From the NCBI GenBank assembly GCA_023251215.1, contig JAHEZF010000023.1, positions 1-13,456 of the forward strand: a DNA stretch of 13,456 nucleotides. Reading direction: 5' to 3'. The notes under the pieces are model-generated. The model made no database searches, was not told the DNA's origin, and was given only the letters and a program-made list of their open reading frames with translations. Shown in pieces: positions 4,840-13,456 of the stretch. The number at the start of each line of letters is the position of its first letter. Positions within the stretch are counted from its first letter, which is position 1. The DNA is from Sphingobacteriales bacterium. Lineage in GTDB: Bacteria; Bacteroidota; Bacteroidia; Chitinophagales; Chitinophagaceae. The position numbers were made by a program, and so were the translations under genes.

Positions 4840-4970
4840 ACCCCAAACCCCTAAAGGGGCTTTGGAACAGTTCTTATAAATAAACATTTTTCATCTCTCA
4901 ATCCTGCCCTTGAGCAGGAGAAAAGAGCTCTGATATTAATTCTCTCAACTCCCCTTTAGGGGTTGGGGGT
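4840..4970. repeat. Paired inverted-repeat element between rpsJ and rplC (131 bp)
   Basis: Arms 4840-4863 and 4947-4970 are inverted copies agreeing at 21 of 24 positions; each has the near-palindromic core CCCCTAAAGGGG. Between them lie the motif AACAGTTCTTAT (4866-4877) and a 6-bp hairpin (4902-4907 with 4914-4919). The same motif and layout recur at 8464-8602, so this is a dispersed family rather than a one-off. No coding potential and no T-run after the arms, so it is not a canonical terminator. Confidence 0.8.
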
Positions 4971-5042
4971 ATATAAAAACAAGCCATTCAGGGTTTGTTT
5001 ACTGCCGGTACTTCCAAATAAAGGAAAAGGTCGGTGGCAAAC

Positions 5043-5080
5043 GGGGATTGACTCCCGACATTAATCGTCGGGAATGTCCC
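5043..5080 (+). promoter_or_regulatory. Stem-loop in the rplC leader
   Basis: An inner 7-bp stem (5053-5059 TCCCGAC with 5067-5073 GTCGGGA) is extended by an outer 4-bp stem (5044-5047 with 5077-5080) across an internal loop. It ends 30 bases before the rplC start. No T-run follows, so it is not a terminator. It could be a translational control element or only a copy of the TCCCGAC hairpin repeat also seen at 2135-2155. Confidence 0.5.
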
Positions 5081-5110
5081 AATAATCCTGCAGGTATAAA
5101 TTGAATAAAC

Positions 5111-6774: not shown

Positions 6775-6895
6775 GCCCCCATCCCCGCCAGCTGGCGGGG
6801 TGTAAGGCGACTATAAAGAATGGTAGTTCAACGACCGCAAAGTTTGAAAACTGATTTATTAAAATGTTCTTAATCCCTCTTTAGGGGATATGGGC
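6775..6895. repeat. Paired inverted-repeat element between rplW and rplB, with 18-bp palindrome
   Basis: The left part starts GCCCCCAT and contains the perfect 18-bp palindrome CCCCGCCAGCTGGCGGGG (6783-6800). The right part (6875-6895) reads, on the other strand, GCCCATATCCCCTAAAGAGG. The two arms therefore share the outer GCCC-AT-CCCC frame in inverted orientation but differ in their centres. This is a diverged relative of the elements at 4840-4970 and 8464-8602. It fills most of the 137-base gap; no promoter is evident in it. Confidence 0.65.
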
Positions 6896-8138: not shown

Positions 8139-8480
8139 ATGGAAGCGATAGCAAAACTGAAAAATTATCCAACATCACCCCGCAAAATGCGGTTACTGGC
8201 TGATCTGATACGAGGTAAGGAAGTAGAAAAGGTGTTGGCTGAACTGGACCATAACAGTAAACACCCGGCTGTGCCCTTGCGTAAGCTGGTGCTGAGTGCT
8301 ATTAATAACTGGAAGCAGAAAAATGAGGGTGGCGATGAACACCAATTGGTGATAAAAACAATTTTTGTGGATGGAGCAAGGACTTTAAAGAGAATGAGGC
8401 CGGCTCCGCAAGGTCGTGGTTACCGTGTTCGCAAACGTAGTAACCATGTAACAGTGATCGTGGATGCCCCCACCCCCTAA
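8139..8480 (+). CDS. rplV: 50S ribosomal protein L22 (uL22), C-terminus encoded by a repeat
   Basis: L22 binds all 23S domains and its long beta-hairpin lines the exit tunnel near the macrolide site. The 113-residue protein has the expected opening [20 protein letters not shown] and the hairpin region [20 protein letters not shown] (about 77-96). The core ends at about SNHVTVIVD. The last four codons (Ala-Pro-Thr-Pro, 8466-8477) and the TAA stop lie inside the left arm of the inverted-repeat element 8464-8602, whose right arm carries nearly the same bases in inverse order. The protein's tail and stop therefore seem to have come from the repeat. It follows a heptamer tract and has no Shine-Dalgarno sequence. 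Confidence 0.97.
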
Positions 8481-8602
8481 AGGGGAGTTAGGGAAGATTC
8501 TGACAAGTCAAACAGTTCTTATCTTATATAACAGAAATAAAAAAATAAAACCTCTCCCAAAACAGGAGTGTTCATAAGCACCTCTTTAGGGGATGGGGGC
8601 AT
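8464..8602. repeat. Paired inverted-repeat element overlapping the 3' end of rplV (139 bp)
   Basis: Arms 8464-8485 and 8581-8602 are inverted copies agreeing at 20 of 22 positions, each beginning (reading inward) ATGCCCCCA and holding CCCCTAAAG. Inside lie AACAGTTCTTAT (8511-8522), identical to the motif in the element at 4840-4970, and a weak CTCC/GGAG hairpin (8554-8568). The left arm supplies the last codons and stop of rplV, and the right arm ends ten bases before the rpsC start. Confidence 0.82.
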
Positions 8603-8612
8603 AAATTAAAAT

Positions 8613-9416
8613 ATGGGTCAAAAAGCAAATCCGATTGGCAACAGGTTAGGCATCATCAGGGGATGGGAATCTAACTGGTACGGTAATAAGAGAGATTATG
8701 CCGGTAAGCTGATCGAGGATAACAAGATCAGAACTTACCTGAATGCCCGTATCAACAAAGGCGGTATCTCAAAGATTGTTATTGAGAGAACATTGGGAAA
8801 ACTGATCATTACGATTCATACATCTAAACCGGGTATTATTATTGGTAAAGGTGGTGGCGAAGTGGATCGCATCAAAGAAGAGTTGAAGAAACTGGCGGGT
8901 AAAGAAGATGTACAGATAAATATCCTGGAGATACGCAGACCAGAACTGGATGCAATGATTGTGGCTGATACGATTGCCCGTCAAATTGAAAACAGGATCA
9001 ACTATAAAAGAGCTATTAAAATGTCTATTGCATCTGCATTACGAATGGGTGCTGAAGGAATAAAAGTAAAAGTAGCCGGCCGTTTGGGTGGCGCTGAAAT
9101 TGCCCGTACTGAAGAGATCAAGCAGGGCCGGGTACCACTGCATACATTCCGGATGGATATTGATTATGCTAATGTGTTTGCATTAACCGTGTATGGTAAG
9201 ATTGGCATTAAAGTATGGATATGCAAAGGCGAAGTATTGGCAAAAAGAGATTTGAACCCCAACTTCATTGGCGGCAAGAGTGATGTCAGCGACAGGAGAG
9301 AAAGAAGAGATGATCGTCATGACCGCCGCGATGACAGAAGAAGCGGAGGAGGAGACAGAAGAAGTGGAGGAGGAGATAGAAGGGGTGGTGGTGGAGGAAG
9401 AGACAGAAGAAGTTGA
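8613..9416 (+). CDS. rpsC: 30S ribosomal protein S3 (uS3) with Arg/Gly-rich repeat tail
   Basis: S3 forms the mRNA entry site of the 30S subunit with S4 and S5 and has helicase-related function. The 267-residue protein begins [20 protein letters not shown]. The KH domain has its GKGG loop at about 78-81, and the C-terminal domain runs to about 226. It is longer than E. coli S3 (233 residues) because of a charged tail from about residue 223: first [15 protein letters not shown], then repeats of RRSGGGD (residues 242-248, 249-255, and a third degenerate copy). The tail is encoded by a 21-bp purine-rich near-repeat (9336-9413). An extended basic tail may add RNA contacts, but no function is shown. 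The stop lies in an octamer repeat tract. Confidence 0.97.
9336..9413 (+). repeat. 21-bp near-repeats encoding the S3 tail
   Basis: Three adjoining units of seven codons encode [14 protein letters not shown] and RRGGGGG, followed by RDRRS. The strand is almost purely purine (AGA AGC GGA GGA type codons). The reading frame is intact, so the repeat is part of the protein; copy number may vary between relatives. Confidence 0.8.
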
Positions 9417-10924: not shown

Positions 10925-10938
10925 ATCCCTTTAGGGAT
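10925..10938. repeat. Small hairpin ATCCCTTTAGGGAT in the rplX leader
   Basis: A 6-bp stem with a two-base loop ends 7 bases before the rplX start. Its CCCTTTAGGG core equals the core of the arms of the paired elements at 4840-4970 and 8464-8602, but here there is only one copy, so it may be a solo or decayed arm. Confidence 0.6.
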
Positions 10939-10945
10939 TTAGGAT

Positions 10946-13360: not shown

Positions 13361-13456
13361 CCCTGTCCCCCTGAAGGGGGAACTTGGGTGGTACAGTTCA
13401 TTTACAAGTTGAAAAGTTTTATTAAATAAAGTCTCTGGCAATATCAGAGGCGTCAA
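13361..13456. repeat. Cut-off repeat element after rplF
   Basis: A 7-bp stem (TCCCCCT 13366-13372 with AGGGGGA 13375-13381, loop GA) begins ten bases after the rplF stop. ACAGTTCA at 13393-13400 echoes the AACAGTTC motif inside the elements at 4840-4970 and 8464-8602. A second hairpin (CTCTG 13433-13437 with CAGAG 13445-13449) follows, as in those elements. No right arm is seen because the window ends; this looks like the first two thirds of another copy. Confidence 0.55.

Follow-up and report, generated by a model that had tools for sequence, protein, structure and literature searches.

How does the gene for an essential ribosomal protein come to end within a sequence that recurs, inverted, directly in front of the next gene of the operon? 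The question is raised by the rplV-rpsC junction of a Chitinophagaceae S10 operon, located on contig C206 of a 2.02 Mb genome (345 contigs, 72% complete); the whole stretch analysed, hereafter the window, comprises 13,456 nt. The two arms at this junction (Table 1) match in inverted comparison at 20 of 22 positions, exactly as the earlier note on this DNA had reported, and the pair can be extended to 37 nt at 76% complementarity. The mRNA strand of positions 8440-8625 is predicted to fold with an energy of -55.4 kcal/mol (z = -4.15; 0 of 200 shuffles equally stable), and in the mRNA spanning rplV and rpsC the two arms would base-pair into a hairpin. A scan of the window against Rfam revealed no family at the gathering score.

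Table 1. Features of the rplV-rpsC junction and other arms of the S10 operon (positions in the window)
Feature	Position	Strand	Basis
Arm 3 nt past the rpsJ stop codon	4841..4859	+	pattern search
Inverted partner of the 4841 arm, 141 nt upstream of the rplC ATG and not abutting it; the pair brackets native, conserved intergenic sequence	4951..4969	-	
Variant arm, with GCCAGCTGGC in place of the TAAA loop, directly past the rplW stop codon	6775..6800	+	read by eye; missed by the pattern search
Its facing, inverted arm with 2 mismatches, 17 nt upstream of the rplB ATG	6876..6894	-	
rplV (ribosomal protein L22/uL22), 113 aa	8139..8480	+	ORF; Pfam PF00237, 108 bits, residues 5-108
Left arm; patterned 19-mer CCCCCACCCCCTAAAGGGG at 8467-8485	8464..8485	+	pair, pattern and inverted comparison
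Pro-Thr-Pro codons and TAA stop (8478-8480) of rplV, supplied by the repeat	8469..8480	+	sequence; stop at +11 of the 19-mer
Spacer of 95 nt between the arms, in which native sequence (rplV tail and gap) is weakly traceable	8486..8580		summed score, 19/500 shuffles as high
Right arm, inverted; 10 nt upstream of the rpsC start codon	8581..8602	-	sequence, pair search
rpsC (ribosomal protein S3), gene downstream of rplV	8613..9416	+	ORF; adjacency in relatives
Degenerate arm directly upstream of the rplX ATG (10946)	10927..10943	-	
Second-subtype arm (CCCTGTCCCCCTGAAGGGG), 4 nt past the rplF stop codon; probable partner on contig C120	13361..13379	+	

The arm belongs to a dispersed repeat. The pattern CCCCNNNCCCCTAAAGGGG, allowing at most one mismatch, is found in 51 copies (27 + 24) in this genome, as against none (0 + 0) when it is read backwards, which excludes chance and upholds the earlier proposal that the arm is repeat sequence rather than L22-specific coding DNA. 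Exact copies were detected in 39 of the 196 genomes searched: this one (labelled G000 in the counts; other G and L labels denote compared genomes and loci), 37 further members of its family and one more from its order, with a maximum of 44 per genome (G135). Paraflavisolibacter caeni LB-8, a cultured environmental carrier, has 27 places when one mismatch is allowed. For closer analysis we used 171 arms (at most one mismatch) from stretches of six genomes, comprising all 51 places of G000 and subsets from G135 (35), G026 (34), G141 (20), G012 (23) and G150 (8). Within a long open frame lie 27 of the 171 (G000 8/51, G135 3/35, G026 6/34, G141 0/20, G012 8/23, G150 2/8), and the arm exhibits the features that define REPs, i.e. 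a palindrome of 20-40 nt with many dispersed, mostly extragenic copies. It is highly probable, in our judgement, that the left arm belongs to a REP-like palindromic repeat some 20-35 nt long that has spread in Chitinophagaceae genomes, formed by a CCCC-TAAA-GGGG hairpin with a second C-run on one side, and that this copy landed in the last codons of rplV and gave the gene a new tail and stop.

Two peculiar arrangements of arms were encountered in other loci. Contig C8 of G041 (35856-36114, locus L186) contains six direct tandem arms with a spacing of 48 nt (16 codons), perhaps in a reading frame. A second repeat motif, GTTGCGTCGCACTCTT, adjoins or separates arms in L312-L331 (G141) and is found in the spacer of L304 (G026), with a one-base variant in L002 (G000).

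The 3' end of rplV reads GTG GAT GCC CCC ACC CCC TAA, and its part GCC-CCC-ACC-CCC-TAA (8466-8480) lies within the left arm. The patterned repeat begins at 8467, and Pro-Thr-Pro-stop is composed of its letters; CCCCTAA is in frame and the TAA of rplV lies inside the arm, which therefore carries its own in-frame stop, as had been suspected. The assignment of the preceding Ala to the repeat is probably incorrect. Of the 109 relatives, all without the arm core, 31 have this residue directly past the VIVD strand, and locus L085 shares the GAT GCC; the GCC codon is thus probably native, and the repeat most likely gives three codons and the stop, not four.

The comparison with relatives covered 109 rplV loci (101 distinct sequences), of which 29 derive from the best 30 of the 95 matching genomes among 99, with the own locus left out, and 80 were collected in addition. 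The highest L22 identity among these relatives is 93%. None of the 109 proteins ends in PxP and none of the genes has the arm core near its end; likewise, a relative that keeps APTP and lacks the arm, which the earlier note had named as the pattern that would speak against a repeat-made end, was sought in all 109 loci and not found. The tails after VIVD differ: they start with (T/A/S)K in 68 of the 109 and range from 2 to 76 residues (median 6). Across the 57 distinct solved L22 sequences that were matched, the best-matching segment stops at query residue 107-113, and a 110-aa L22 chain present in 665 structure entries, which we take to be that of E. coli, extends hardly at all past the matched stretch. 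The claim that a repeat had landed at and rewritten the end of rplV in frame thus stands as far as the repeat-made end is concerned, given the other tails of the 109 relatives; "rewritten" is too strong, since the tail after VIVD varies freely and the change at rplV was accordingly mild, leaving the essential part as it was, and the landing itself is our reconstruction. In Niabella hibiscisoli (L145, around 1865) a different palindrome, CCTGCCCGCCAGGCAGG, lies within the C-terminal tail of rplV (NLPARQAGL), which is a second case of a palindromic sequence in an rplV tail.

The next issue is whether the arm alone or the whole arm-spacer-arm arrangement is the unit of the repeat. The rplV-rpsC gap is 132 nt long here, compared to a median of 27 nt among the 109 loci (at least 100 nt in five of them), which is what one would expect if all 139 nt, spacer included, were repeat sequence inserted as a single unit, such as a MITE or BIME. 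Pairing is also common in the family, with a facing partner within 300 nt for 94 of the 151 arms outside G141. In G135 and G026 the arms have in common a short subterminal sequence of two types, with one of each in several pairs, and from this similarity some pairs may have come as units. However, the remaining 57 of the 151 arms have no partner, and the spacers of paired arms (34-220 nt, median 83), read by eye, look unlike each other from the arm ends onwards. Moreover, two pairs of this very operon, at rpsJ-rplC and rplW-rplB, enclose native intergenic sequence that is common to arm-free relatives: in the comparison with the arm-free G018, 0/500 and 1/500 shuffles, respectively, scored as high. 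In the 95-nt rplV-rpsC spacer, the trace of the native rplV tail is weak, with a score, summed over 18 relatives, that 19/500 shuffles equalled; taken singly, 3 of the 18 relatives reached at most 13/500. Hence, while the inverted pair proposed earlier is real, the repeat is probably the single arm, because the rpsJ-rplC and rplW-rplB pairs have native sequence between them, and we regard the insertion of one composite unit as quite unlikely.

The intergenic sequences enclosed by these two pairs have features of their own. In the rplW-rplB gap (6815-6848), a short native motif of the relatives, AAAGAATGGCTTCAACAGCCGCTAATGTTGAA, is present in altered form between the two arms. The rpsJ-rplC gap (4866-5110) is conserved in 8 Chitinophagaceae genomes, and its consensus fold has 51 pairs, 16 of them with two-sided changes that keep the pair; it is probably a structured non-coding RNA and a candidate ribosomal-protein leader. 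In G058 this gap has degenerate arm-like sequence at both arm positions (found by eye; the core pattern missed both). At the other end of the window, the final 26 bases (13431-13456) recur as the opening 26 of C120, another contig of this genome; C120 is therefore the probable continuation of the operon, which would have a further arm ahead of its next gene.

Locus L085 deserves a separate comparison. Its rplV-rpsC gap is 129 nt long, the rplV stop codon is as far from GATGCC as it is here, and the ends of the gap are faintly arm-like. The alignment of the whole gap plus native flanks with L085 scored 47.3, above all 300 shuffles (maximum 41.6); the gap interior alone scored 18.3 (vs 4.7 +/- 8.7), barely above unrelated gaps, which gave 16.9, 16.9, 15.5, 3.8 and -5.5. 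The signal of a decayed arm at the two ends of the gap was matched by 4/1000 and 1/1000 shuffles (best of three consensus variants per end), which suggests that L085 may have a decayed arm at each end; a decayed rplV-rpsC insertion common to this genome and L085 is possible. The genome of L085 is rich in arms (86 places) and, judged from its list of places, appears to be G112.

The strong predicted fold at rplV-rpsC, together with the placement of arms at gene edges and their fixed polarity (see below), would also suit a functional intergenic stem, e.g. a terminator, an mRNA stabiliser or a device for translational coupling, selected at gene borders and kept similar by gene conversion, without any mobility. 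The same structured rpsJ-rplC module being bracketed by arms in G000 and by degenerate arm-like sequence in G058 agrees with such a role. Nonetheless, a relaxed arm core is missing from eight of nine other S10 stretches and occurs once in the ninth (two of the stretches are partial, and the degenerate arms of G058 were missed). Between 8400 and 8700 no terminator-like site overlaps either rplV arm, the sole site (8554-8568, minus strand) being located within the spacer, and the arm was rejected as a Rho-independent terminator in view of the lack of a GC stem with a directly following T run at rplV. Furthermore, the 29 of 62 pairs that have a gene assigned to both arms include 22 codirectional, 4 convergent and 3 divergent cases, and with all three arrangements present no single transcript-end role fits all pairs. 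We consider a selected, immobile stem unlikely, and hold to a dispersed REP-like repeat.

A trivial explanation would be an assembly artefact, in which short repeats joined unrelated contigs at rplV-rpsC; the genome is indeed fragmented and incomplete, and the window ends inside an element. Such an error is highly improbable: the rplV-rpsC order is conserved in relatives, the complete arm pair is present on one contig, and gene-edge arms recur in four other assemblies (G135, G026, G012 and G150).

rplV is not the only gene terminated by a copy of the repeat. Among the 79 genes that run into an arm, 10 have their stop codon (TAA or TGA) inside the arm core (three in G000, four in G135 and one each in G026, G012 and G150). 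The search for further gene-ending copies in the same genome, which the earlier note had recommended, was successful: two more ORFs of G000 stop at the TAA or TGA of an arm, one of them with PPTP-stop. The arm-ended tails are PPTP, ETPVL and DAPTP in G000, TPDP, APNP, TPNP and APNP in G135, PLSP in G026, and APIP in both G012 and G150. According to Pfam, the ORF with PPTP-stop encodes a HlyD-type membrane-fusion protein; for the one ending in ETPVL Pfam gave no match, and it is possibly not a genuine gene. Other frames read through the arm core and give tails such as PPSPKG.

In most of the examined carriers the arms, whether single or in inverted pairs, are located mainly at the border between gene and intergenic sequence, with the C-rich side turned towards the gene. 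Of the 79 genes running towards an arm, 41 have their stop codon 0-8 nt from its outer (C-rich) edge (random points: 59/640; inner edge: 1/66), and of the 82 running away from one, 34 have their nearest in-frame ATG at this distance from that edge (random points: 67/780; inner edge: 1/75), with an ATG within one base of the arm in 13 cases. The random points were placed in arm-free intergenic gaps of 40-400 nt, 10 per gap, and about 9% of them fall within 8 nt. The P-values for the excess are 3e-18 on the stop side and 2e-13 on the start side, but they overstate the certainty, because arms are paired, each gap contributed 10 points, and the starts are uncurated nearest in-frame ATGs. With G141 left out, the 57 unpartnered arms abut a gene with the outer edge only in 33 cases, with the inner edge only in one, with both in one and with neither in 22, while among the 94 partnered arms the outer edge abuts in 52 and neither edge in 42. 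Abutment is thus not strict (64 of the 151 arms outside G141 have no gene contact on either side by the criterion applied here), and 10 of all 171 arms have no gene assigned on the outer side. G141 itself is an exception, with none of its 20 arms abutting a gene and the 19-mer embedded in longer repeats. Within the S10 operon, stop codons directly adjoin the left arms or lie inside them, and the right arms at rpsJ-rplC and rplW-rplB are 141 and 17 nt away from the next ATG, respectively.

This distribution invites a broader idea, which we put forward tentatively and with more doubt than belief: the repeat family might mark the border between coding and non-coding sequence, with an arm of ~22 nt at stops and starts, the same side turned gene-ward whatever the direction of transcription, with native intergenic sequence between the arms and, in some cases, the stop or start codon furnished by the arm. 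The random-point control shows the scattered distances that survival of harmless insertions alone would predict, and such survival therefore leaves the abutment to start codons unexplained. If the family does mark borders, gene edges would have to be recognised, either in the choice of target or by a selective filter.

As for the origin of the rplV end, the most likely course is that a REP-like single hairpin spreads by means of an enzyme other than the usual Y1 transposase, as far as the examined genomes show, and that its copies persist at gene borders; no mobilising enzyme was found for the arm. One arm would have reached rplV by insertion, landing inside the last few codons. The old tail would have been a short, variable and often lysine-bearing stretch, the loss of which the ribosome could tolerate, and, because the CCCCTAA of the arm was in frame, rplV would have acquired Pro-Thr-Pro as a new tail and a new stop codon. 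By the same route, any arm landing just inside an ORF in the CCC-TAA frame could end the gene there, and in rplV we infer that selection merely tolerates the arm. A dispersed hairpin repeat would in this way have become the end of an essential ribosomal gene with its folded domain untouched. Beyond this single gene, the family shows a tendency to lie close against genes at either end, with a fixed polarity, and its fit to gene starts besides gene ends is unusual. Since a 3' end function alone cannot explain placement on the start side, the reason why REP-like repeats occur at gene ends becomes testable, provided that the placement holds with curated starts in closed genomes.

Several known systems resemble the arm in part. 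MITEs are small, non-coding elements ended by inverted repeats, and the arm pair is likewise small, non-coding and ended by inverted repeats; it differs from them in that no conserved body was seen between the arms (copies read by eye) and no transposase was found. GTAG/CGTC REPs, according to PMC3733652, are small multicopy palindromes that occur singly or as dimers, mainly in intergenic sequence, near the 3' ends of ORFs and in some cases inside ORFs; flanking ORFs often take their stop codon (TAG) from a GTAG REP end, so that repeat-supplied stop codons as such are already known, and the distance to downstream ORFs varies. Compared with this description, the arm is alike in being a many-copy palindrome, single or paired, mostly extragenic, stop-supplying and occasionally located in ORFs, and unlike in that its stop is a TAA or TGA inside the hairpin and in that it also abuts start codons. 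Its membership in the tagged REPs was rejected, as the tags are rare beside the 171 arms (counted up to 8 nt from the 19-mer; GTAG: outer side 2, inner 2; CTAC: outer 6, inner 1; CGTC: outer 1, inner 2; GACG: inner 1). A Y1 (RAYT) transposase was rejected as its partner as well: PF01797 has no match in G000 even at an E-value of 0.1 (in a genome 72% complete), nor in G041, G111 and G023, the first two of which have 28 and 15 exact arm copies; other arm carriers do have Y1 genes, and the arm core was found at 1 of 30 Y1 loci (one per genome; for 10 of them the source genome has exact arms). The arm thus differs from the known stop-supplying REPs by lacking the GTAG/CGTC tag and, in several carriers, a Y1 gene, and by its abutment on the start side. 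The RAYT/TnpA-REP subclass 2.6 is found in the same phylum, Bacteroidetes, and has atypical flanking structures with copies elsewhere in the genome, as stated in PMC6006769. Finally, Rickettsia palindromic elements (RPE) are insertions within ORFs, as PMC3733652 describes them; in both cases a palindromic repeat becomes protein-coding, with the RPE sitting inside the ORF and the arm terminating it.
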